NCBI GenBank assembly: GCA_030609125.1
Contig: JAUWCW010000004.1
Span: 1-22,669 of the forward strand
DNA from: JAUWCW01 sp030609125 [NCBI: Candidatus Rokuibacteriota bacterium]
GTDB taxonomy: Bacteria > JAUVQV01
Direction: 5' to 3'
DNA: 22,669 nt
Part shown: positions 1,915 to 22,669 of the stretch, piece after piece
Numbering within the stretch: the stretch's first letter is position 1
Layout: the number at the start of each line of letters is the position of its first letter
The notes under the pieces: model-generated
The model's input: the letters and a program-made list of their open reading frames with translations, nothing else
Database searches by the model: none
Told to the model about the DNA's origin: nothing
Translations under genes and position numbers: made by a program

Positions 1915-3582
1915 ATGCCTGCCCGGTCTGAGAAACAGGAGCCGGGCCGGGGAGAGCGGGGGTGGTCGCCTCCGCGTTTCGGCCGGAGTTTTCGTGTCGC
2001 CCTGGTCTATCCGGGCTCGTACCGGGCCGGCATGTCCTCCCTTGGCTTTCAGACCGTTCTGCACGGCTTCTCAGTTCTCGATGACGTCGCCGCCGGCCGG
2101 GTCTTTCTAGACGAGGAGGGCGAGGAGCTTATTCTCCTCGATGCCGCCGTCGATCCGGGCCGAGTCGATCTCCTCGCCTTCTCCGTCTCCGCTGAAAACG
2201 ACTACCCGCAGGTGCTGCGGATCCTTGCCCTCGCCGGCCTCCCTCTCCGCTCCGGCCTGCGGAAGCGGCCGCACCCTCTCGTTATCGCCGGAGGCATCGC
2301 TCCGAGCCTGAATCCCGAGCCCCTGGCGGAATTCATGGACGCCATTGTCCTGGGAGAGGGCGAGCAGGTTCTGGCGCCGCTCGTCGAGGCCGCACGGGAA
2401 AGCGGGGGGGGCGAGGCGGACAGGATGGCCCGCCTGGAAAAACTCTCGTCCGTGGAGGGGGTCTACGTCCCCTCCCTCTACGAACCCTCGTACGCCGCGG
2501 ACGGGACGCTGGCGGGATTCACCGCCGCGCCGCCGGCTCCGGCGAAAGTCGTCAGGGCAGTTACCCGCGACCTCGACCCCTACCCGGCTGTAAGCCGCAT
2601 CGTGGCGCCGGGGAGCGAATTCGAAGACCTCTTTCTGATGGAGGTGAATCGGGGGTGCGGGAGAGGATGCCGCTTCTGCGCCGCCGGTCATCTCATCCGG
2701 CCCCTGCGCCATCGCTCGCTGGAATCCCTGAAGGCTCTCGCCGATGAGGGGGCGCTGATGTTCGAGCGTTTCGGCCTCCTCGGCTCCGCCGTGGCGGACC
2801 ATCCGAGGATAAAGGATCTGATGAAGGCGCTCCTGGACCGGGGCCGGCAATTCTCCGTATCTTCGCTGAGGGTCGATCGCCTCGAGCCGGAGTTCCTGGA
2901 CCTGCTCAGGCGGGGCGGCTGCAGGACGGTGACTCTCGCTCCGGAGACGGGAAGCGAGCGCCTGCGCCGGGCCGTGGGCAAGCGCATAAGCGATGAGCAG
3001 ATCCTCGCCGCCGTCGAAGCGGCGGCGGCGGCGGGTATTCCCAACCTGAAGCTGTACTTCATGATAGGGCTGCCGACGGAGACCGCCGGGGACCGGGACG
3101 CCATAGCGGCCCTTCTGAGAAAGGTGAGGCACCGGGTGGTCTCCGCCAGCCGGGAGCACGGCCGAATCGGAACGATCAGGGCCAGTGTGAGCTGCTTCGT
3201 TCCGAAGGCCTGGACGCCCTTTCAGTGGCACCCCTTCGCGGACGTGAAAGAGCTCAAGGCGGCCTTGCGCCTCCTGTCGAAACAGATCGGGAAGATCCCC
3301 AACGTGACGGTAACTCACGATCTGCCCAAATGGGCCTACGTGCAGGCCCTGCTTTCCCGGGGAGACCGGCGGACGGCGGACATCCTGGAGAGGGTTCACC
3401 GTCTCGGAGGGGACTGGAGCCGGGCCCTCAGGGAGTCGCCCTTCAACCCCGATTTCCTCGTCTACCGTGCCCGTGATAAGGACGAGCTCTTCCCCTGGGA
3501 TTTCATCGGCACCGGCCTGCGCCGGGAGAGGCTGTGGCAGGAGTACGAGCGGGCCCTCGGGGAAGAGGCGGGGAAGACATGA
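1915..3582 (+). CDS. Radical SAM protein with N-terminal B12-binding-like domain, function unknown
   Basis: The product has 555 residues. The N-terminal part (about 25-150) begins FRVALVYPGSYRAGMSSLGFQ and contains IAGGIAPSLNPEPLAEF and VLGEGE segments, as in the cobalamin-binding-like domain that precedes many radical SAM enzymes of the YgiQ/MiaB-like type. The cluster motif CGRGCRFC gives C248, C252 and C255, which would hold the [4Fe-4S] centre that cleaves S-adenosylmethionine. TLAPETGSERLRR and NLKLYFMIGLPTE are typical beta-strand segments of the radical SAM barrel. The substrate cannot be told from sequence. The ATG has an AAAGGAGGAG ribosome site, and the stop overlaps the pgeF start (ATGA). 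Position directly after ftsZ suggests co-expression with division genes but does not prove a division role. Confidence 0.85.
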   Translation: MPARSEKQEPGRGERGWSPPRFGRSFRVALVYPGSYRAGMSSLGFQTVLHGFSVLDDVAAGRVFLDEEGEELILLDAAVDPGRVDLLAFSVSAENDYPQVLRILALAGLPLRSGLRKRPHPLVIAGGIAPSLNPEPLAEFMDAIVLGEGEQVLAPLVEAARESGGGEADRMARLEKLSSVEGVYVPSLYEPSYAADGTLAGFTAAPPAPAKVVRAVTRDLDPYPAVSRIVAPGSEFEDLFLMEVNRGCGRGCRFCAAGHLIRPLRHRSLESLKALADEGALMFERFGLLGSAVADHPRIKDLMKALLDRGRQFSVSSLRVDRLEPEFLDLLRRGGCRTVTLAPETGSERLRRAVGKRISDEQILAAVEAAAAAGIPNLKLYFMIGLPTETAGDRDAIAALLRKVRHRVVSASREHGRIGTIRASVSCFVPKAWTPFQWHPFADVKELKAALRLLSKQIGKIPNVTVTHDLPKWAYVQALLSRGDRRTADILERVHRLGGDWSRALRESPFNPDFLVYRARDKDELFPWDFIGTGLRRERLWQEYERALGEEAGKT

Positions 3583-4397
3583 CGGACATGGTTGTTCACG
3601 AGTACCGCCGCGGCCGCCTATCCCGCCTGGCCCTGGATCTTCTCGAGAAGCGCGGTGTGAGTCACGGCTTCACGCTCCGCTACGGCGGCGTGAGCCGGGG
3701 GGCTTTCGCCAGCCTCAACTTCACGTCCCGGCAGGGGGACGACCCGGAGCGGGTGCGAGAAAACTGGCGGCGCCTGGAGGAAGCGGCCGCCCTTCCGTCC
3801 CGCCGCTGGGCCCTGGTCAGCCAGATTCACGGGGCGGTGGTGGTGAGGGCCGCCGCCGGCGCCGCTTGCCACCACCGGCTCGACTGCCCTCCCGCCGACG
3901 CCATCGTCACGTCGCGCAGGGGGGTGACACTGGGAATCCTCACGGCGGACTGTCTCCCGGTGATCGTTGCCTCCGCGGACGGAGCCGCGGCGGGTGTGGC
4001 CCACGCCGGGTGGAAAGGCACCCTGGAGGGGGTGGCGGTCAGGGCCCTGGAGTCCTTGGGGGGAGGGGACCCCGCCGGGGCAGCGGCGGGGCTGGGGCCG
4101 GCGATCGGAGCCTGCTGCTACCAGGTGGGCGACGAAGTCTATGAGGCTTTCCGGGAAAAATGGGGAGCCGGTTTTGTGCGGAAGGTCTTCAAACGGTCCG
4201 AGCCGTGGAGACTCGATCTGCAGAAGGCCAACGCCGTCCAGCTTATCGAGGCGGGCCTGAAGACGGGGAACATAGGTGTCGTTCCCCTCTGCACCTGCTG
4301 CAGGAAGGACCTTTTCTTCAGCCACCGCCGCGACGGCGAGAGGACGGGAAGAATGCTCGCCTACGCCTGCGTTTCCTCCGCCGGCGCCGCCGACTGA
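3579..4397 (+). CDS. pgeF: Peptidoglycan-editing/laccase-domain protein PgeF (YfiH/YlmD family)
   Basis: This 272-residue member of the multicopper polyphenol oxidase (laccase-domain) family is a cytoplasmic zinc protein. Family members have been linked to removal of mis-incorporated residues from peptidoglycan precursors and to purine nucleoside phosphorolysis. The zinc ligands are visible as H84 (SQIHG), C125 (TADCLP) and H142 (HAGWKG). The conserved tail CTCCRKDLFFSHRRDG is present. The chosen ATG at 3579 overlaps the upstream stop as ATGA, implying translational coupling; the frame is open further 5' (to 3534), but those residues have no family match. A second ATG lies three codons in. 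A role in wall maintenance would fit the neighbouring division genes. Confidence 0.93.
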   Translation: MTDMVVHEYRRGRLSRLALDLLEKRGVSHGFTLRYGGVSRGAFASLNFTSRQGDDPERVRENWRRLEEAAALPSRRWALVSQIHGAVVVRAAAGAACHHRLDCPPADAIVTSRRGVTLGILTADCLPVIVASADGAAAGVAHAGWKGTLEGVAVRALESLGGGDPAGAAAGLGPAIGACCYQVGDEVYEAFREKWGAGFVRKVFKRSEPWRLDLQKANAVQLIEAGLKTGNIGVVPLCTCCRKDLFFSHRRDGERTGRMLAYACVSSAGAAD

Positions 4398-4400
4398 GCC

Positions 4401-4420
4401 GTCCGGCCCCGTCCGGCCCC
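4401..4420 (+). repeat. Tandem direct repeat, two copies of a 10-bp unit
   Basis: GTCCGGCCCC occurs twice head to tail right after the pgeF stop and is followed by a further GTC. It is too small to have a known role and may be slippage-generated spacer. Confidence 0.6.
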
Positions 4421-4425
4421 GTCAC

Positions 4426-4453
4426 TTGACAGCCCGGTGCGCGTCCGGAGAAT
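4426..4453 (+). promoter_or_regulatory. Possible weak sigma-70 promoter before yggS
   Basis: A perfect -35 TTGACA (4426-4431) is followed after 16 bases by GAGAAT (4448-4453), which has 4 of 6 consensus bases. Transcription would then start only a few bases before the yggS ATG, leaving almost no leader, so this is doubtful. Confidence 0.3.
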
Positions 4454-4461
4454 GGGTTGTC

Positions 4462-5169
4462 ATGACCTCCGGAAGAATGACGGTGGCGCAGGCCCTGGGC
4501 GAGGTCCGCTCCCGGATCTCCGCGGCGGCGAAGCGATCGGGCAGGTCCGCCGGCGAAGTGGCGCTTCTGGCGGTGACCAAGACGGTTTCCCCCGAAAGAA
4601 TCCGGGAGGCCGTGGCCGCCGGGCAGACTCTCTTCGGGGAGAACCGTGTCCAGGAGGCCCGGGTCAAGATAGAGGCCGTCGGATCGGCGGTGACCTGGCA
4701 CATGATCGGTCATCTGCAAAAGAACAAGGCAAGAGCGGCGGCGGAGCTCTTTGCCGCCGTCCAGTCCGTCGACTCGGTTGCACTGGCGGCGGCGCTGGCT
4801 CGGCGGGCGGGGGAGGCGGGCAGGAGGCTCGAGATCTTCATCCAGGTGAAAGAGGCCGAGGAGGAGGCAAAGAGCGGAATCCGCCCCGAAGAGGCCCCCT
4901 CCCTCATTGAGTCCATAGCCGGTTTTCCCAGCCTGGTCCTGAGGGGCCTGATGAGCATTCCCCCCTGGCCGGAAGATCCGGAAGATTCCCGTCCGTACTT
5001 TGCCCGCCTGCGGCGACTGCGGGAGGAGTGGGACGGCAGCTGTTGCCCTCCCGGCACTCTCAGGGATCTCTCCATGGGGATGACTGCCGACTACGAGGTC
5101 GCCGTGGAGGAGGGGGCGACCATCGTCAGGGTCGGAAGCGCCATCTTCGGCCCGCGATCGTATCGGTGA
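4462..5169 (+). CDS. yggS: PLP homeostasis protein, YggS family
   Basis: The 235-residue, single-domain fold-type III pyridoxal phosphate protein (YggS/PROSC/YlmE) helps balance free vitamin B6 and amino/keto-acid pools and has no firm enzymatic reaction. The cofactor lysine is K40 in LLAVTKTVSP. HMIGHLQKNK and the C-terminal SMGMTADYEVAVEEG...VRVGSAIFG phosphate-binding segment are also present. The frame is open to 4276, but the family match begins near the chosen ATG, which has a GGAG 11 bases upstream; an ATG at 4477 is a second option. The gene lies 64 bases after pgeF. In many bacteria yggS sits with yggT, proC and yggU; here proC and yggU follow and yggT is absent. Confidence 0.94.
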   Translation: MTSGRMTVAQALGEVRSRISAAAKRSGRSAGEVALLAVTKTVSPERIREAVAAGQTLFGENRVQEARVKIEAVGSAVTWHMIGHLQKNKARAAAELFAAVQSVDSVALAAALARRAGEAGRRLEIFIQVKEAEEEAKSGIRPEEAPSLIESIAGFPSLVLRGLMSIPPWPEDPEDSRPYFARLRRLREEWDGSCCPPGTLRDLSMGMTADYEVAVEEGATIVRVGSAIFGPRSYR

Positions 5170-16117: not shown

Positions 16118-17050
16118 TCACTTTTTCGGGCTCAGGTGTCTTACCAGCAGCGCTTTCTGCAGATGCAGACGGTTCTCCGCCTGGTCGAGGATGAGCGATG
16201 CCGGACCGTCGAGGACATCCGCGGTGATCTCCTCCCCCCTGTGGGCCGGCAGGCAGTGCATGACCACCGCGCCCGGGTTGGCGAGAGAGAGCAGCCGGCT
16301 GTTGATCTGGAACCCGCGGAAGGCCCGGAGCCGCCCCCGCCGCTCCTTCTCCTGACCCATGCTGGTCCACACGTCGGTGTAGAGAACGTCGGCTCCGGCG
16401 GTGGCCGTGTCGGGGTCGTGACAGAGGCGGGGAGGATCGCCGGCGCCGCGGAACCTGGAGCGCGCCTCTCCCAGCACCTCCGGCAGAGGCTCGTACCCCT
16501 TCGGGACGGCCAGTGTAAGGTCAAGCCCGAGGATGCCCGCGGCCAGTATCCACGAGTGGGCCACGTTGTTTCCGTCTCCGACATAGGCGATTTTCACGCC
16601 CTTCAGCCGTCCGAACGACTCCCTGATCGTCATGATGTCCGAGAGGATCTGGCAGGGGTGACAGAAGTCGGAGAGGCCGTTTATGACGGGGATGGTCGAG
16701 TGCCGTGCCCAGGCTTCCAGTTCCTTCTGCTCGAAGGTCCTGATGACGATACCGTCGAGGTAGCGGGAAAGGACGCCGGCCGTGTCTTCCAGGGTCTCGC
16801 CGCGCTGCAGCTGTATTTCCGACGGAGGGATGACGATGGCGGTGCCGCCCAGCTGGGCCATGCCCACCTGGAAGGAGACGCGGGTGCGCGTTGAGGGCTT
16901 GGAAAAGAGCAGCCCGAGAACCTTCCCCCGCAGCGGGCGTCCGCCCCTTCCCCGGGCATGGTCCTTCTTCATCCTGATGGCGGCGCTGATCAGACTGCGG
17001 ATCCCCGCGCCGCTCAGGTCTGTTACCGACAGAAGATCTTTCTTTTTCAC
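16118..17050 (-). CDS. argF: Ornithine carbamoyltransferase
   Basis: The enzyme makes citrulline from ornithine and carbamoyl phosphate. The 310-residue protein has the carbamoyl-phosphate motif STRTR (53-57), HPCQ (131-134), DVWTSMG (226-232) and the ornithine-site motif HCLPAHRG (265-272), as in anabolic trimeric enzymes. It starts at GTG (17050-17048). The ribosome site is weak, but no better start exists before the promoter. It is first in the arg operon and is read divergently from hsp20. No convincing ArgR box was found in the leader. Confidence 0.97.
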   Translation of the reverse strand: MKKKDLLSVTDLSGAGIRSLISAAIRMKKDHARGRGGRPLRGKVLGLLFSKPSTRTRVSFQVGMAQLGGTAIVIPPSEIQLQRGETLEDTAGVLSRYLDGIVIRTFEQKELEAWARHSTIPVINGLSDFCHPCQILSDIMTIRESFGRLKGVKIAYVGDGNNVAHSWILAAGILGLDLTLAVPKGYEPLPEVLGEARSRFRGAGDPPRLCHDPDTATAGADVLYTDVWTSMGQEKERRGRLRAFRGFQINSRLLSLANPGAVVMHCLPAHRGEEITADVLDGPASLILDQAENRLHLQKALLVRHLSPKK

Positions 17051-17093
17051 TCTTGCACGCTGTCGACAGATTCACTCACAAAGCAAAAAAGTG

Positions 17094-17122
17094 ATCTTAC
17101 GCATCCCGCAGCTGTATGACAA
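17094..17122 (-). promoter_or_regulatory. Promoter of the argFGH operon
   Basis: On the minus strand TTGTCA (17122-17117) and TAAGAT (17099-17094) are 17 bases apart. The run of six T residues just after the -10 (minus-strand 17090-17085) covers the likely start site. Confidence 0.6.
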
Positions 17123-17140
17123 GCTTTTTCGGTCCTTTAC

Positions 17141-17165
17141 GCCCTCTCCCCTGGAGGGAGGGGGC
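17141..17165. repeat. Inverted repeat between the argF and hsp20 promoters
   Basis: GCCCTCTCCC (17141-17150) pairs with GGGAGGGGGC (17156-17165) over 10 bp with one G-T pair and a 5-base loop. No T-run follows on either strand, so it is not an ordinary terminator. Its CCCTCTCCC/GGGAGGG character resembles short dispersed intergenic repeats of proteobacteria, but only one copy is in the window. Confidence 0.5.
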
Positions 17166-17201
17166 GCCGAAGGGCTCGGGATGAGAAGCGACCAGGCCGG
17201 A

Positions 17202-17224
17202 GGTTGATTGTTGGAGACTCAACC
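17202..17224. promoter_or_regulatory. HAIR-like operator (HspR-associated inverted repeat)
   Basis: GTTGATT (17203-17209), 7 bases, then ACTCAAC (17217-17223). The known HAIR consensus is CTTGAGT-N7-ACTCAAG: 11 of 14 bases and the exact spacing match. The arms, with one extra outer pair (17202/17224), are complementary at 7 of 8 positions. It covers the -35 box and most of the spacer of the hsp20 promoter, where a bound repressor would block polymerase. An HspR-like protein is encoded by the third gene of the operon. Confidence 0.7.
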
Positions 17225-17232
17225 TATATAGT
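17204..17232 (+). promoter_or_regulatory. Promoter of the hsp20-dnaJ-hspR-sigma operon
   Basis: TTGATT (17204-17209) and TATAGT (17227-17232) have 17-base spacing, a sigma-70 type arrangement. The start would be near 17239, giving a leader of about 41 bases. Confidence 0.65.
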
Positions 17233-17249
17233 AAATTCTCACGCAAGGG

Positions 17250-17266
17250 CGGCGCCTGCGGCGCCG
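17250..17266 (+). promoter_or_regulatory. Perfect GC hairpin in the hsp20 leader
   Basis: CGGCGCC, loop TGC, GGCGCCG forms an uninterrupted 7-bp stem between the predicted transcription start and the hsp20 start codon. It ends 13 bases before the ATG. It could modulate ribosome access or mRNA stability; its function is inferred. Confidence 0.5.
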
Positions 17267-17279
17267 GGTGAACACTGGT

Positions 17280-17741
17280 ATGGGTCAGGGCAAAAACTTC
17301 GACTACAGGAAATTCCTCAGGAACCTGGAGGAATTGAAATTCCGGGAGCAGCACCTCTACGCCGAGAGGGTTACGGCCGTATACGGCGGGGGGATGACCT
17401 CCACGGGAGAGTGGACTCCCGCCATCGACGTCTACGAGACGAAGGAGAGTTTCTTCCTCGTCGCCGAAGTGGCGGGGCTGAGCGAGGAAGACATCCGCAT
17501 CGAGGTGGCGGAGAACATCGTTGCCCTGAAAGGGGAGCGGCCCTTCACTCGCAAGGGCGTGTCGTCCGAGAACTACTACCGGATGGAGTTCTCCTACGGT
17601 AGCTTCGAGCGGTCGTTCACGCTCCCCTGCGCCGTCGACGCCTTGGAGGTAAAGGCCGTGCTCAAGGACGGGATTCTGACCGTGAAGCTGCCTCGCAGCG
17701 ATTCCGGGCGGAAGCAGACCACCATCATAGTTGTGAAGTGA
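17280..17741 (+). CDS. Small heat shock protein, Hsp20 family
   Basis: The 153-residue ATP-independent holdase contains one alpha-crystallin domain (about 45-140). It starts at the WTPAIDVYETKESFFLVAEVAG strand region and ends with the family motif around LKDGILTVKLP (DGIL at 130-133). The N-terminal arm is short and charged. The C-terminal tail TTIIVVK could supply the I/V-x-I/V oligomer contact. ATG 17280 is chosen with GGGTGA at 17266-17271 as a weak ribosome site; a GTG at 17268 in the same frame would abut the hairpin and is less likely. It is first in the operon with dnaJ (27 bases downstream), hspR and a sigma gene, under the HAIR-like operator. Confidence 0.92.
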   Translation: MGQGKNFDYRKFLRNLEELKFREQHLYAERVTAVYGGGMTSTGEWTPAIDVYETKESFFLVAEVAGLSEEDIRIEVAENIVALKGERPFTRKGVSSENYYRMEFSYGSFERSFTLPCAVDALEVKAVLKDGILTVKLPRSDSGRKQTTIIVVK

Positions 17742-17768
17742 CATGGCGAGAGGGAGCCGGAGGGGAGC

Positions 17769-18845
17769 GTGAGAAGAGACCTTTACAGGACCCTCGGAAT
17801 TCCCCGCCAGGCCCGTGAGCGTGACATTCAGCGGGCCTACCTCAAGCTTGCCAGAAAGTGTCATCCCGACGTGAATCCCGGGGACCGGCAGGTGGTGGTC
17901 CGTTTCAGGGAGATTCAGGAGGCGTACCGGGTGCTCGTCAACCCTGCGGCACGACAGCTGTACGACCGGAAGGGGCAAGTTTTGCCTCCGCGGAAAGAGG
18001 GGAGCCCGGCGCGGGAGAAGGAGGCGGCTTCTCCCGAGTCCCGGGGCTGGGAGAATATCATCAGAGATGTTTTTCACGGTGAGACGGCCGAGGTCGACAC
18101 CGGCGCCTCCAGGGGCGAGGACCTCCACCCTGTTCTCGAGGTAAGCTTTCAGGAGTCTCTGAAAGGCGCGAGGAAGGATATTGTCTACCAGCGCGAGGCG
18201 GCCTGCACCGTGTGCGGCGGGAGGCGCTTTGCCCCCGGAGCCCCCGTCGGCGAGTGCGGGGACTGCGGCGGCAGCGGTCTCGTAAGGGTCAGGAGGGGCC
18301 CCTACCAGGTGAAGAAGATCTGCCCCCGCTGTTCCGGCGCGGGTGAGACGAGCACCAGGTTCTGCGCCGGCTGCGGAGGCAAGGGCAGGAGGCTGGTGAC
18401 GGAGAAGAGATCGGTCCAGGTCCCTGCCGGAAGCGACTCCGGTACGATCATAGAGGTCCCCGGGGGAGGACAGCCGGGGAAGCGTGGAGGCGAGAGCGGG
18501 AGCCTCCTGGTAACCGTAAGGGTCCAGCCCCATCCCACTATCGAGAGGAGGGGCTACAATCTATTCCGCACCGTGCCGGTCACCCTGGCTGAAGCCGCCG
18601 GAGGTTCGACGATACTGGCGCCGACGGCGGAGAAGAAGGTCTCGCTGAAGATCCCCCCGGGGACCCAGTGCGGGCAGCAGTTCAGGTTGAGGGGCAAAGG
18701 CGTGCCCCTTCCGGGAGGCTCCAAGAGGGGGGACTTCTACGTGACGGTGAAGGTCAGGATCCCCATGGTCACCGACCCCGGGGCCCGGCGGCTCCTGCGC
18801 GAACTGGAGAAGATCTATCCCGAAAATCCACGGGTTAGGGCCTGA
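17769..18845 (+). CDS. dnaJ: DnaJ-family co-chaperone with zinc-finger domain
   Basis: The 358-residue J-protein stimulates a DnaK-type ATPase and delivers substrates to it. The N-terminal J domain (about 3-67) has the essential HPD at 32-34. The glycine/phenylalanine linker is replaced by a charged stretch with WENIIRDVFHG at 93-103, a remnant of the DIF-like motif. The zinc domain has four CxxC pairs (C145/148, C162/165, C184/187, C198/201); the first repeat (CTVCGGRR) lacks the last glycine of CxxCxGxG. Two C-terminal beta-barrel domains follow. The GTG start has GGAGGGGAG upstream. No dnaK or grpE is in the window, so this may be a second, specialised DnaJ working with Hsp20 rather than the main one. 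Confidence 0.9.
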   Translation: MRRDLYRTLGIPRQARERDIQRAYLKLARKCHPDVNPGDRQVVVRFREIQEAYRVLVNPAARQLYDRKGQVLPPRKEGSPAREKEAASPESRGWENIIRDVFHGETAEVDTGASRGEDLHPVLEVSFQESLKGARKDIVYQREAACTVCGGRRFAPGAPVGECGDCGGSGLVRVRRGPYQVKKICPRCSGAGETSTRFCAGCGGKGRRLVTEKRSVQVPAGSDSGTIIEVPGGGQPGKRGGESGSLLVTVRVQPHPTIERRGYNLFRTVPVTLAEAAGGSTILAPTAEKKVSLKIPPGTQCGQQFRLRGKGVPLPGGSKRGDFYVTVKVRIPMVTDPGARRLLRELEKIYPENPRVRA

Positions 18846-18860
18846 CGGAGAAGGAAAGAC

Positions 18861-19256
18861 ATGGCGCGGGAAGAAAACGAGAAAGACAGGGACAAACCTC
18901 TCTATATGATCAGCGTCGTCTCGGAGCTGCTCGGTGTGCATCCCCAGACCCTGAGGCTCTACGAGAGGGAGGGCTTTATCAACCCGAGAAGGACAAGGGG
19001 CAACACGAGACTCTATTCCGAGCGTGACGTGGAGGACGTGCAGCGGGTGCTGCACCTTACACGGGACCTGGGAGTAAATCTCGCCGGTGTCGAGGTGATC
19101 CTCGAGATGCGCCGGAAGATGGAAAAGATGCGGGCTGAAACGGATGAAAAGATAGAATTCCTCCGGCAGGAGATGAGAAGGGAGTTCGAAAGGCAGCAGG
19201 CGCGGAAGGCTCTTGTGAGAGTCGGACGGGTGGGTACGGTTAGAAAAGCGGACTGA
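18861..19256 (+). CDS. hspR: Heat-shock repressor, HspR-like MerR-family regulator
   Basis: The 131-residue protein has an N-terminal MerR winged helix-turn-helix (about 14-72): LYMISVVSELLGVHPQTLRLYEREGFINP, then TRLYSERDVEDVQRV and LGVNLAGVEVILEM. The ISV-x-HPQTLRxYEREG and GVNLAGVE strings are the HspR type rather than metal-sensing MerR. A long charged coiled coil (about 77-115) for dimerisation follows. HspR represses chaperone operons by binding HAIR repeats, in known cases with DnaK as co-repressor. The HAIR-like site at 17202-17224 makes autoregulation likely. The ATG has GGAGAAGGAA upstream and is 15 bases from the dnaJ stop. Confidence 0.9.
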   Translation: MAREENEKDRDKPLYMISVVSELLGVHPQTLRLYEREGFINPRRTRGNTRLYSERDVEDVQRVLHLTRDLGVNLAGVEVILEMRRKMEKMRAETDEKIEFLRQEMRREFERQQARKALVRVGRVGTVRKAD

Positions 19257-19270
19257 AGGATCTATCGGGG

Positions 19271-19287
19271 CGCCGGAATGTCCGGCG
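19271..19287 (+). promoter_or_regulatory. Hairpin between hspR and the sigma gene
   Basis: CGCCGG, loop AATGT, CCGGCG forms a perfect 6-bp stem in the 65-base gap. No T-run follows, so it may mark an mRNA processing or pausing point that sets relative expression of the sigma gene. Confidence 0.35.
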
Positions 19288-19321
19288 TCTCGCCAGGTGG
19301 AAACAAGGGGGGGAACGGACC

Positions 19322-20182
19322 ATGTCGGCCGGTGGCAACTTCGAGTTCCGTGATCTTCGCAAAACGTCCCTGGGAACGTACTTGAAGGAGATCGCCAGGA
19401 TTCCTCTTCTGACCCGGGAAGAGGAGATCGAGGTTGCCAAGCGTGCCCGCCAGGGCGACCAGGAGGCCCTGCGGGAGCTGGTGGAGGCCAACCTCCGCTT
19501 CGTCGTGAGCGTTGCCAACAAATTCACCGGCAGCGGAATCCCCCTTCTGGATCTTATTAACGAGGGGAACGTCGGTCTCATCGAAGCGGCCCGGCGCTTC
19601 AACCCTGACCATGGGGTCAAGTTCATCTCCTACGGCGTATGGTGGATCAGGCAGGCGATCATGCAGGTCCTGGCCGAGCAGCAGGGCTCGGTGAGGCTCC
19701 CCCTGAAACAGGCGGGTCTCCTCTACAAGATCAGGCGAAAGTACGAGGAGCTCTTCAAGAAGCACGGCCGCGAGCCCACCAACCGGGACCTGGCCCAGGC
19801 CCTCGGGATCAAGGTGAAGGACGTGGAGGAGGTCCTCCGTGTTTCCCGCCGGTCCCTCTCCCTGGAAAGCCCCATAGGCGAGGACTCCGACACGGCCTAC
19901 CTGGAGCTGATGCAGGCCGAGGATGCGCCGGCCGTGGACCAGGAGCTCATTCAAAAATCCCTCCACGAGGAGATCCTGAAGCTTCTCGAGAGCCTCGAGG
20001 AGAGGGAAAAGGAAGTTCTCCGCCTTCGCTTCGGCATCGGGTCGGACAGCACCATGACCCTGGAAGCGGTGGGCGAAAAGCTCGGTCTGAGCCGCGAGCG
20101 GATACGGCAGATAGAGAAGAAGGCGAAGAAGAAGCTCCAGCGGGCCGCCAAGGGGCGGCAGCTGATGGACTTTCTGAATTAA
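19322..20182 (+). CDS. Alternative (group 2-like) sigma-70 family RNA polymerase sigma factor
   Basis: The 286-residue protein has sigma regions 1.2 (SLGTYLKEIARIPLLTREEE, 16-35), 2 (about 52-122, with GNVGLIEAARRF and FISYGVWWIRQAIM), 3 (about 127-205) and 4 (about 217-286, with LSRERIRQIE at 256-265). It lacks region 1.1, so it is shorter than an RpoD of this kind of organism. It also lacks the RpoH box, so it is not sigma-32. The region 4.2 residues that contact -35 TTGACA are conserved. In region 2.4 the position of E. coli Thr440 is Met (AIM), so -10 preference may differ. GGGGGGAAC precedes the ATG. It is fourth in the hsp20-dnaJ-hspR operon. Similar short sigma factors are the primary sigma of Bacteroidetes, but here a second, longer RpoD is expected elsewhere. 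Confidence 0.9.
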   Translation: MSAGGNFEFRDLRKTSLGTYLKEIARIPLLTREEEIEVAKRARQGDQEALRELVEANLRFVVSVANKFTGSGIPLLDLINEGNVGLIEAARRFNPDHGVKFISYGVWWIRQAIMQVLAEQQGSVRLPLKQAGLLYKIRRKYEELFKKHGREPTNRDLAQALGIKVKDVEEVLRVSRRSLSLESPIGEDSDTAYLELMQAEDAPAVDQELIQKSLHEEILKLLESLEEREKEVLRLRFGIGSDSTMTLEAVGEKLGLSRERIRQIEKKAKKKLQRAAKGRQLMDFLN

Positions 20183-20189
20183 CCCGAAT

Positions 20190-20217
20190 TTGCATTTCCC
20201 TGCCTGCTCGATATAAT
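20190..20217 (+). promoter_or_regulatory. Promoter with consensus -10 before the histidine kinase
   Basis: A perfect TATAAT (20212-20217) has only a poor -35 (TTGCAT, 20190-20195, 16-base spacing). The strong -10 with weak -35 suggests an activator or an alternative sigma factor. Confidence 0.5.
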
Positions 20218-20223
20218 GTTCCC

Positions 20224-20420
20224 GCCGTGTCACTCTGATGCGCCGCTGAAGCGGCCGCAGCAGACCAGCACTTCAGCGGCATCGTTCTTCCCCGGTCCCA
20301 AAGCCCGGCACGGAGCTTTTTCCTGCCGGCGGACCGGGTCACCTGTTCCGCGGGATCCGCAGAGTCACTGTTCTGCCAAGCCGGTTCTACCGGGCCGGCC
20401 CACTGTGCAAGGGGAGAGGC
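20224..20420 (+). ncRNA. Structured leader or small RNA upstream of the histidine kinase
   Basis: No gene fits here, but successive stems can be read. GCCGCTGAAG/CTTCAGCGGC (20242-20251/20271-20280) is perfect over 10 bp. CCCGGTCC/GGACCGGG (20291-20298/20331-20338) is perfect over 8 bp and encloses a second stem (20303-20310/20324-20330, one bulge). GCGG-GAT-CCGC lies at 20350-20360 or, as an alternative, GCAGA/TCTGC at 20359-20363/20372-20376. CCGGT-TCT-ACCGG lies at 20381-20393. The kinase ribosome site GGGGAGAGG follows. I do not recognise a known RNA family or riboswitch. Confidence 0.4.
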
Positions 20421-22385
20421 ATGTTTGAAGATCCTTCGGCCGTCTGGCGGTTCACACCGCAGGCGTGGCTGCCGCTGACGGGGTTCTTTCTCACCCTGGG
20501 GCTGGGACTGTACGTATGGTCCAGAAACCGGAGCGCCCTCCTGAACCGGTCCTTCGCCCTGCTCAACGTCGCGGCGGCCCTGTGGAACCTGGACGTCTTT
20601 CTCCTTTTCACCGTCCAGGATGCCGAGCTGGCGGGGTATCTCGACAGAATGCTGCAGGTACCGATCGTCTCCATCCCCTTCCTGGGGCTCTTTTTCTTCT
20701 TCACTTTCCTCGGCATCCGTCGGAGGCACCCCCTCCTCGTGGCCTTCGGGCTCTGGACGGTGATGCTCTGGTTCATCAGTACGGGCCCCGGATTCATCGC
20801 TTCCTGGGACCGGCACTGGTTCGGCTACTACGGGCGGGCGGGCAGGTTCTATCCGCTTTTCATCGCCACCCACGTCGCCTACCTTTTGATCTCGTGCCGT
20901 TTTCTCTGGAAGGCGCACAGGGCCAGCGGCGACGGACTGCGCCGCCATCAGATAGCCAACCTCCTCCTTGCCAATCTCGTTCTCGGCCTGATCAGCCTCC
21001 ACAACTTCGGCCCGCTCTACGGGGCGCAGAGACTCCCCCTGGGCAACCTCGCCGCGGTCCTGTATTTCTTCGTCATCTCCGCCACCATAGTCCGATACCG
21101 CCTCCTCGACGCCCACGTGCTTTTCCGGTACAGCCTCATCTACTCCACACTGACGTTCGTCCTCTCCGGCCTCTACCTGCTCCTCATCCTCGGGCTGCAG
21201 GGATGGTTTCAGGTGGAGTTCTCTTCCGGATCCCTGCTGCTTCCCATGATGCCCGCCATGGCGGTGGCTTTCGCCTTCGGCCCCGTGAAAAGCTCCCTCC
21301 AGGAGCGGCTGGACAGGTACTTCTTCCGTTCCAGGAAACTCCTGCGCTCCCGTCTCGCCGGCTTCGCCGCCGTCGTTGCACCCCTCGAGCGGGAAGAGGA
21401 AGTATGGAGGGCGGCCTGGGACAGGGGCTGGAAATACGTTGATCCCGCGTGGGTGTCCATCGTGTCTGAAAAAAACGGGTGCAGTCGGCCTGAAGTGACG
21501 GCGGGTGATGTTCCCGACGCCGGCACCCGCGGGACGGGCGGCCTTCGGCTTCAGGTGGAGGGCACGGAAGGTCCTCTCGGCTCCTGTCTGCTCGGCCCCA
21601 AGAGGGGGGGCGACGTGTACAGCACGGAGGAGACCTCCTACGCGCGGGCCATCGCGGCCCAGAGCGCCCTCGCCGTTGAAAAGGTGAGGCTCATCGAGGA
21701 GGGCCGCAGGAAGGAGCGCCTGGCGGCTTTCGGCAGGGCTGCGGCAGTGATCTCTCACGAGTTGCGCAACCCCCTCAACGTCATCCGCGCCGCCGCCGCT
21801 CTCCTGCGCTCCCGTGTTGCCGGAGGGGACGGCGAGGAACTGGTTGGTGTCGTCGAGGGCGAGATCAGGCGGGGAGACCGGTTCATTTCGGATTTTCTCG
21901 CCGCCTGCAGGGAGCCCCGCCCCTCCTGCTGCGCCGTCGAACTCGGCCCTTTCCTGCGGCGGTTCGCGCGCACCTGGCCCGAGGGGGAGTTTGCGTCCAT
22001 GAGGGTGAAGCTGAGTCTCCCGCCCGCCTGTCCGACTGTTCGGGCCGATCCCTTTCAGCTGGAGAGGGTATTTCAGAACCTGGCGCGCAACTCCGCGGAA
22101 GTCACGGGCGGTTCGGGGACTGTGACGATACGCTGTGAACCGGAAGGGGCGTCGAAAGTTCTGATAACAGTCGCTGACGACGGGCCCGGTATCGCCGCGG
22201 ACAGCCTTCCGCGGCTCTTTGAGCCCTTTCAGACGTCAAAGAGAGGCGGCACCGGCCTGGGCCTCTCCATCGTGAGGACCATTGTCGAGGCTCACGGAGG
22301 AAGGATTACGGGGGAGAACGGCGAGGCCGGGGGCGCTGTCTTTCGCATCGCCCTCCCCGCTCTGATCGGCAAGGAGGGGACGTGA
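20421..22385 (+). CDS. Membrane-bound sensor histidine kinase (multi-TM, GAF-like, HisKA, HATPase)
   Basis: The 654-residue protein begins with about eight hydrophobic membrane segments between residues 17 and 290. A GAF-like region follows (about 311-425, ending YARAIAAQSALAVEKVRLIEEGRR). The dimerisation domain has the phospho-histidine H446 (AVISHELRNPLNVI). The ATPase domain has N-box NLARNSAE (553-560), G1 box VADDGPGIA (584-592), F-box LFEPFQTS and G2 box GGTGLGLSI (609-617). The layout of polytopic sensor, GAF, HisKA and HATPase resembles kinases such as PrsK of exosortase systems, but no exosortase genes are seen. The stimulus is unknown. A response regulator begins 43 bases downstream and is the likely partner. 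The ATG has GGGGAGAGG upstream. Confidence 0.92.
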   Translation: MFEDPSAVWRFTPQAWLPLTGFFLTLGLGLYVWSRNRSALLNRSFALLNVAAALWNLDVFLLFTVQDAELAGYLDRMLQVPIVSIPFLGLFFFFTFLGIRRRHPLLVAFGLWTVMLWFISTGPGFIASWDRHWFGYYGRAGRFYPLFIATHVAYLLISCRFLWKAHRASGDGLRRHQIANLLLANLVLGLISLHNFGPLYGAQRLPLGNLAAVLYFFVISATIVRYRLLDAHVLFRYSLIYSTLTFVLSGLYLLLILGLQGWFQVEFSSGSLLLPMMPAMAVAFAFGPVKSSLQERLDRYFFRSRKLLRSRLAGFAAVVAPLEREEEVWRAAWDRGWKYVDPAWVSIVSEKNGCSRPEVTAGDVPDAGTRGTGGLRLQVEGTEGPLGSCLLGPKRGGDVYSTEETSYARAIAAQSALAVEKVRLIEEGRRKERLAAFGRAAAVISHELRNPLNVIRAAAALLRSRVAGGDGEELVGVVEGEIRRGDRFISDFLAACREPRPSCCAVELGPFLRRFARTWPEGEFASMRVKLSLPPACPTVRADPFQLERVFQNLARNSAEVTGGSGTVTIRCEPEGASKVLITVADDGPGIAADSLPRLFEPFQTSKRGGTGLGLSIVRTIVEAHGGRITGENGEAGGAVFRIALPALIGKEGT

Positions 22386-22428
22386 CGACTGACCTCGGAA
22401 GAGTGCCGTGTGAAGAAGGAGGATGCTG

Positions 22429-22669
22429 ATGGAGGAAGGGAACAGTTCCGGGCGGTGGAGGATTCTCCTGGTGGACGATGACGAGCAGGCCCTGCGCCTC
22501 TACGGAGCCCTGCTCGGGGAGGAGGGTTACTCCGTCACGACGGCGGCCACGGCGCGGGAGGCGCGAGGGCTCGTGGCGTCCATGGACAACCTGGCCCTGG
22601 CGATCCTGGACCTGAGGCTTCCGGACGCGGAGGGGCTCGAGCTCTTTCGCTGGACGAGGAAGAAGGCCC
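22429..22669 (+). CDS. Response regulator, N-terminal receiver domain (3' end outside window)
   Basis: Eighty codons are visible. RILLVDDDEQALRLY supplies the acidic pocket (D16, D17), and AILDLRLPDAEGLELF supplies the phospho-acceptor D61. The ATG at 22429 is favoured because AGGAGG lies six bases upstream; an in-frame ATG at 22423 touches that site directly. The output domain is outside the window, so it could be an NtrC-type activator or another class. It is almost certainly the partner of the upstream kinase. Confidence 0.9.
   Translation, partial: MEEGNSSGRWRILLVDDDEQALRLYGALLGEEGYSVTTAATAREARGLVASMDNLALAILDLRLPDAEGLELFRWTRKKA

Follow-up and report, generated by a model that had tools for sequence, protein, structure and literature searches.

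A chaperone gene cluster with a predicted HspR operator

We analysed a stretch of 22,669 nucleotides from contig JAUWCW010000004.1 (the window, by which we mean this stretch at its full length), derived from a member of Candidatus Rokuibacteriota whose assembly, designated G000, comprises 2,316,609 bases and is 92% complete. Four consecutive genes in the window encode a small heat shock protein (hsp20), a DnaJ-type co-chaperone, the heat shock repressor HspR and a sigma-70 factor. They are preceded by an inverted repeat that overlaps the -35 element of a predicted promoter and, judged by its sequence and setting, is very probably a genuine HspR operator of known kind (Table 1). The phylum is represented in the compared set by two genomes, G000 and a sister genome, G001, which belongs to the same order and a different family.

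Table 1. Features of the operon and its surroundings in the window, and loci at which a sigma-70 gene is linked to hspR
Feature	Positions or loci	Strand	Remarks
HAIR-type HspR operator (predicted), GTTGATT-gttggag-ACTCAAC	17203-17223	.	left arm is the -35; right arm inside promoter spacer
Sigma-70-type operon promoter (predicted), TTGATT-17-TATAGT	17204-17232	+	hexamers 17204-17209 and 17227-17232; spacer 17
hsp20, small heat shock protein, alpha-crystallin domain	17280-17741	+	PF00011, 1.2e-21; in-frame GTG alternative start 17268
dnaJ-type co-chaperone	17769-18845	+	GTG start; J domain and DnaJ C-terminal domain above cut-offs
hspR, MerR-family heat shock repressor	18861-19256	+	NCBIfam NF047375, 113.2 bits (cut-off 105)
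Sigma-70 factor, regions 1.2, 2, 3, 4	19322-20182	+	probable fourth operon gene
7TM-type histidine (sensor) kinase	20421-22385		related kinase gene adjoins operon in G001 (L034)
Response regulator receiver domain	22423-22668		at window end, after kinase gene
Sigma-70 genes linked to hspR	19322-20182 (window), L034-L038, L112-L114, L116, L117, L120-L122, L125, L127, L130, L138, L147, L181		

An initial annotation, drawn from the sequence alone, had recognized hsp20, dnaJ and a third gene encoding an HspR-type MerR protein within an interval of 17202-19256. These three gene calls were upheld, the third product passing the cut-off of the curated HspR model, and no dnaK is linked to the operon in the window; the interval itself ended too early, and the sigma-70 gene that follows hspR was overlooked. 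The central CxxC domain of the DnaJ-type protein falls slightly below its Pfam cut-off (31.1 versus 32.7 bits). HspR shares 74% identity with its counterpart in G001, where its linkage to hsp20 and dnaJ, which lie immediately upstream, is kept and where the entire order hsp20, dnaJ, hspR, sigma, kinase is the same as in the window.

The inverted repeat is present with the sequence originally reported, although it begins one base later, at 17203 rather than 17202. Re-scoring against the published HAIR consensus, CTTGAGT-N7-ACTCAAG, reproduced the reported agreement at 11 of 14 positions (11 of 12 when the outer pair is dropped) and the gap of exactly seven, and the described geometry also stood: the left arm of the predicted operator contains the TTGATT hexamer that serves as -35 in the predicted promoter of hsp20. 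That promoter matched at 9 of 12 positions in a scan that returned four promoter-like sites in 16950-20450, against 0.3 expected. Within the window the repeat is the sole HAIR match of at least 11/14, three further sites reaching 10; chance would supply 0.004-0.006 such matches across the 229 intergenic bases ahead of hsp20 and 0.4-0.7 across the window, and for at least 11 of the 12 inner positions the expectation in the intergenic stretch is about 0.0001-0.0003. A genome scan similar to the one proposed in the initial annotation located a single exact copy of TTGANT-N7-ANTCAA in the assembly, at this promoter, and no copy of a reversed control pattern.

A further candidate regulatory feature, an RNA thermometer in the hsp20 leader, was rejected: the folding energy was no better than that of shuffled sequences (z of 0.67 in the window and 0.79 in G001), and Rfam models gave two matches only, far under gathering scores, on the opposite strand and inside genes.

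Recurrence of the predicted operator at hspR loci

A search of 386 genomes (E <= 1e-15) detected HspR in 104 of them. The comparison of operators comprised 93 loci (78, a further 14 regions, and the window) with HspR matches of about 81.8 bits or more; several share a genome, genus or family and so do not count as independent. A separate scan of named organisms, with one protein as query, yielded seven loci. Scans reached about 250 bases ahead of linked chaperone genes and of hspR. A TTGAGT-N7 palindrome matching at 10 or more of 12 positions occurs at 24 of the 93 loci, compared with a best of 8 and a median of 1 for 59 permuted half-sites, and at most 6 loci carry it at any other spacing from 3 to 12. 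The pattern TTGACA-N7-ACTCAA, derived from the same 93 loci in which it was then counted, is found with 11 or more of 12 positions at 30 loci; permuted right arms yielded no more than 11 (median 0), and none of the other gaps tried, between 1 and 15, exceeded 2. Pooling both definitions gave 45 sites in 39 loci.

Of these 45 sites, 21 have their best -10 match at a distance of 17 bases from the left arm. Left arms end in CA (29 sites), GT (8) or TT (3), with the proviso that the definitions used favour CA and GT; the form TTGATT, seen in three sites, is found in the window and also in an Arcobacter record (L049), upstream of dnaJ-hspR. The outer pair is loose: 11 sites have C..G, and the left outer base is C in 25. 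In the window G..C takes the place of the HAIR outer pair, but since 34 of the 45 comparable sites, the window's included, lack C..G, we do not treat that pair as defining HAIR. The initial annotation had read the "compensating" G..C exchange as a lineage variant of the operator. We discard this proposal because G..C occurs only in the window among the 45 sites; four other candidate sites in G000 and G001 have outer pairs C..G, C..G, A..G and A..T.

The gene order hsp20-dnaJ-hspR is shared by six of the 93 loci (among them the window) that lack dnaK in the stretch fetched and by seven more that contain it. At two loci, L039 (G020) and L110 (G305), tandem hspR-like domains occupy one frame of about 245 codons and resemble the curated "fused homodimer" HspR.

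The coincidence of the left arm with the -35, together with the recurrent 17-base spacer, raises an alternative, namely that TTGACA-N7-ACTCAA-N3-TATATT is a promoter signature for the linked sigma factor or some other regulator and is not bound by HspR. An hspR-linked sigma gene, present at 20 of the 93 loci, would accord with this. Strong sites, however, are found at 27 of the 73 loci without a linked sigma gene as well as at 12 of the 20 with one (one of the other eight begins at a contig edge); the 12-of-12 palindromes at L107 and L108 lack a matching -10 at this spacing; and the published HAIR consensus has the same gap of seven and the same ACTCAA arm. On the evidence of these HspR loci we regard a promoter signature of this kind as improbable, and consider binding by HspR the better account of the shared pattern.

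Occurrence of the predicted operator beyond hspR loci

In G001, five sites lie within one mismatch of TTGANT-N7-ANTCAA, a pattern set beforehand, and two of them precede heat shock genes, dnaK and a second hsp20. Both of these sites read TTGACA-N7-ACTCAA with TATATT 17 bases after TTGACA, a spacer as in the window, and the former starts about 72 bases ahead of the dnaK start. No convincing HAIR site was seen at the G001 promoters of clpB, hrcA and two other hsp20 genes, and matches with two mismatches are near chance in either genome (137 versus 84 for the reversed control in G001; 206 versus 122 in G000). Within the phylum, then, the strength of the predicted operator varies from one heat shock promoter to another. 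Because G001 carries an exact TTGACA-N7-ACTCAA before dnaK, HspR may well act on the unlinked dnaK.

G000 contains two full-length dnaK genes, on contigs C230 (L060) and C152 (L061), whose products share 59% identity across 596 residues; the stretches fetched around these genes gave no match to hspR or dnaJ. Its 11 one-mismatch sites of TTGANT-N7-ANTCAA all fall within open frames of at least 70 codons, a circumstance that tells little because the window's own site also lies inside such frames. None is on a contig in which dnaK, hsp20 or hrcA was found, and one of the contigs that carry these sites, C166, has a 17-bit match to the ClpB model. G000 also encodes HrcA. GroEL (Cpn60) was unmatched in G000, which may reflect a gap in the incomplete assembly; G001 gave two GroEL matches.

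The pattern TTGACA-N7-ACTCAA was further sought throughout nine chosen genomes, namely that of the window, its sister G001 and seven in which a sigma gene is linked to hspR, and the neighbours of all 12 exact sites, together with 18 fetched one-mismatch loci, were inspected. Eleven of the 12 exact copies of TTGACA-N7-ACTCAA precede genes of the heat shock response or an HtrA-type gene: seven stand before dnaK and one each before hsp20, hspR-sigma, dnaJ-hspR-sigma and a trypsin-PDZ (HtrA-type) protease, the frame of which opens 337 bases past the site start, while the twelfth lies in a coding stretch. The hsp20 and dnaK assignments in G001 come from separate gene searches, the automatic frame choice having picked other frames. 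Five copies (two in G001 and one each in G022, G099 and G215) already belonged to the sets from which the motif was derived; the other seven comprise five copies before dnaK, the one before the HtrA-type gene and the one in a coding stretch. The window's genome and G112 contain no exact copy. By these sequence comparisons, the predicted operator type is tied to heat shock genes of HspR-bearing genomes.

A sigma-70 factor linked to hspR

A sigma-70 gene directly follows hspR at 14 of the 93 loci, in 12 families, and stands behind clpB at six more, in three families, giving 15 families in total (Table 1). The product encoded in the window scores below the cut-offs for RpoH (TIGR02392, 185.7 versus 323.1 bits), RpoS (TIGR02394, 245.2 versus 378.7 bits) and the RpoD C-terminal model (231.2 versus 354 bits), and is apart from Escherichia coli RpoH and RpoS in trees; the genome's own RpoD, on contig C186, scores 405.4 bits. 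In a tree of 58 rows, the linked factors fall in a group apart from the RpoD of their own genomes and from E. coli RpoD, RpoS and RpoH (96/97). Identical rows were reduced to one in the trees, which omit the stop-broken L191 and contain no weaker or partial RpoD-model matches.

The group comprises 30 rows, consisting of all 19 distinct linked sigma factors and 11 unlinked ones, and the label "linked" needs four changes on the tree. The 11 members not found beside hspR come from G099 (seven), G074 (two), G049 and G035 (one each), and G099, G074 and G049 also hold a linked copy. Linkage to hspR is therefore common in this group and is not universal. A preceding tree of 46 rows, in which a group of 20 had one unlinked member (96/87), had suggested a near-exclusively hspR-linked group, an idea undone by the addition of 12 unlinked sigma factors. 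The seven extra members from G099 (L213 and L248-L253) cluster together and look like a lineage-specific expansion.

Residues in regions 2.4 and 4.2 bear on recognition of the -10 and -35 elements, respectively. At the region 2.4 motif that reads WWIRQAIT in RpoD, all 19 linked sigma factors have M, I, V or L in place of T, and their region 4.2 sequence RERIRQIE is close to that of RpoD; our guess would be that they have kept the -35 preference and changed the -10 preference. In G000 and G001, a search with the RpoD model (E <= 1e-20) matched RpoD and the hspR-linked sigma factor and no others, and the latter may therefore stand in for RpoH and RpoS in these genomes.

The sigma gene is a probable member of the operon transcript. 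An alternative holds that HspR controls hsp20-dnaJ-hspR only, the sigma gene having a separate promoter and standing where it does by accident. It is favoured by the 65 bases between the end of hspR and the sigma gene, where visual inspection shows a GC-rich inverted repeat that lacks a T run, and by the 11 of 30 group members that are not beside hspR (although seven of these come from G099), such that linkage is not fixed. Against it are the adjacency in 12 families, with three more behind clpB; the placement of all 19 distinct linked sigma factors in one tree group; and the overlap of the listed hspR (3563-4042) and sigma (4032-4889) frames in G001. In the window, moreover, the sole plus-strand promoter-like site listed downstream of the operon promoter and ahead of the sigma gene falls within hspR, at 18883 (9/12), and no terminator-like site was detected on the plus strand in 16950-20450. 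A separate promoter-like site, at 20189-20217, follows the sigma gene ahead of the sensor kinase gene. Taken together, an accidental position appears rather unlikely, and we favour a sigma gene that is co-transcribed with the chaperone genes. The hspR-sigma linkage was not met in the open-licence literature searched, which is weak evidence of its novelty.

A model for control of the operon

The predicted operator and promoter, the gene order, the protein families and the cross-genome tie of the operator to HspR and chaperone genes can all be read from sequence, and from these it is very likely that hsp20-dnaJ-hspR-sigma constitutes an autoregulated heat shock operon repressed by HspR through the repeat at 17203-17223. 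The corresponding proposal of the initial annotation, that HspR regulates the hsp20-dnaJ-hspR operon to which it belongs by way of a HAIR-type operator on the -35, is accordingly supported as probable.

A number of observations weigh against this interpretation. Only the right arm and the spacing of the window's repeat count as independent evidence, because TTGA is part of the -35 box. Among hspR loci, a strong site is missing from the scanned stretches of 54 of 93, 10 of the 45 sites lack a -10 of at least 4/6 at a usual distance, and the TTGACA-N7-ACTCAA count suffers from the derivation of the motif noted above. Elsewhere in G000 the dnaK site, TTGACA-N7-GCTAAG, is weak (9/14 to HAIR), and there is no convincing HAIR site at the promoters of clpB, hrcA, two other hsp20 genes or the second dnaK, for which just about 130 bases of upstream sequence are on the contig. 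In the nine genomes, one-mismatch matches number 94 versus 50 for the reversed pattern, many thus being chance occurrences, and of the 18 loci examined, four precede chaperone genes (clpB once and hsp20 three times, two of them already known) and the remaining 14 do not, by the comparison used. Membership of the sigma gene in the transcript is weakened by the intervening gap and its GC-rich repeat. Finally, the promoter of the same operon in G001 bears only a degenerate repeat, CTTGATC-N7-ACGCAGG, matching HAIR at 10 of 14 positions (chance 0.04) and TTGACA/ACTCAA at 8 of 12 (chance 0.26). The comparison with a relative that the initial annotation had envisaged hence gives a divided answer, the repeat being poorly kept at the operon promoter and well kept in the wider regulon, before dnaK and the second hsp20.

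This degeneracy in G001, and the presence of HrcA in G000, would be accommodated if the repeat at 17203-17223 resembled HAIR by chance and the operon were under other control, for example by HrcA or the sigma factor alone. The low expectation of such a match in the intergenic stretch, the status of the repeat as the sole exact TTGANT-N7-ANTCAA in the assembly, and the occurrence of the same type of site before chaperone genes in other HspR genomes make this highly improbable, and repression by HspR is the interpretation that we develop here.

In the unstressed cell, an HspR dimer would occupy the inverted repeat and keep RNA polymerase off the operon promoter, since the left arm coincides with the -35 box and the right arm falls between the -35 and the -10, within the 17-base spacer. 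Misfolded protein would divert the chaperone that sustains HspR activity, and HspR would then release the DNA; the sensing chaperone would be DnaK, as in actinobacteria, and possibly also the operon's own DnaJ, by analogy with CbpA. Upon release, Hsp20, DnaJ and fresh HspR would be made together with the RpoD-like alternative sigma factor, provided that the sigma gene is co-transcribed. Viewed as a cascade, release of HspR would give chaperones at once, as well as a sigma factor reaching further stress promoters. We offer as a tentative, and still doubtful, generalization that HspR directly gates a sigma-70 factor of a separate group in many little-studied families, forming a repressor-to-sigma heat shock cascade.

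Relation to known systems and significance

The elements of this circuit have precedents. In the HspR/HAIR system of Streptomyces (a dnaK operon with hspR, clpB and lon), a MerR-type HspR is likewise encoded in an operon under its own control and acts at a repeat with a seven-base gap; the operon in the window differs in lacking dnaK, in placing hsp20 first and sigma after hspR, and in the merging of the left arm with the -35. HspR controls Hsp20-family genes elsewhere, namely acr2 in Mycobacterium tuberculosis (PMC8223512) and hsp20 in Deinococcus radiodurans (PMC2687793), although in those accounts, as far as they were available, hspR is not placed in the operon of the small heat shock gene, as it is in the window. 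In the Helicobacter pylori cbpA-hspR-helicase operon, a DnaJ-type gene again stands ahead of hspR, and HspR binds across the -35 and -10 of the operon that encodes it (PMC6032397); the window has Hsp20 in front and a sigma-70 factor behind, where the helicase stands. DnaK is described as the co-repressor of HspR in Streptomyces and mycobacteria (PMC8223512), and the DnaJ-type CbpA hinders HspR in H. pylori (PMC6032397).

The arrangement singled out in the initial annotation, control of hsp20 and a DnaJ without linked dnaK, is indeed present, but in view of acr2, D. radiodurans hsp20 and cbpA-hspR, as reported in these sources, it is no departure from known HspR control. HspR has been described before as a regulator of hsp20 and of an operon that pairs a DnaJ-type gene with hspR, and the circuit is mostly ordinary HspR biology. 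What is added is the recurrent linkage of hspR to a sigma factor, which the initial annotation had overlooked. The linked factors resemble RpoD, RpoS and RpoH in their sigma-70 regions 1.2-4, and RpoD in the region 4.2 motif; they differ from all three in their separate grouping, and from RpoD in the substitution for its region 2.4 threonine.

The predicted operator extends ordinary HspR biology to a phylum represented by two genomes. The form merged with the -35, TTGACA-N7-ACTCAA, when exact, offers a sharp motif for prediction of HspR regulons in uncultured bacteria. Should HspR prove to release the sigma factor, two strategies of the heat shock response that are usually described apart, control by a repressor and control by a sigma factor, would be joined in one operon, and the linkage would yield a set of sigma factors, many of them flagged by their neighbouring genes, whose promoters can be sought.

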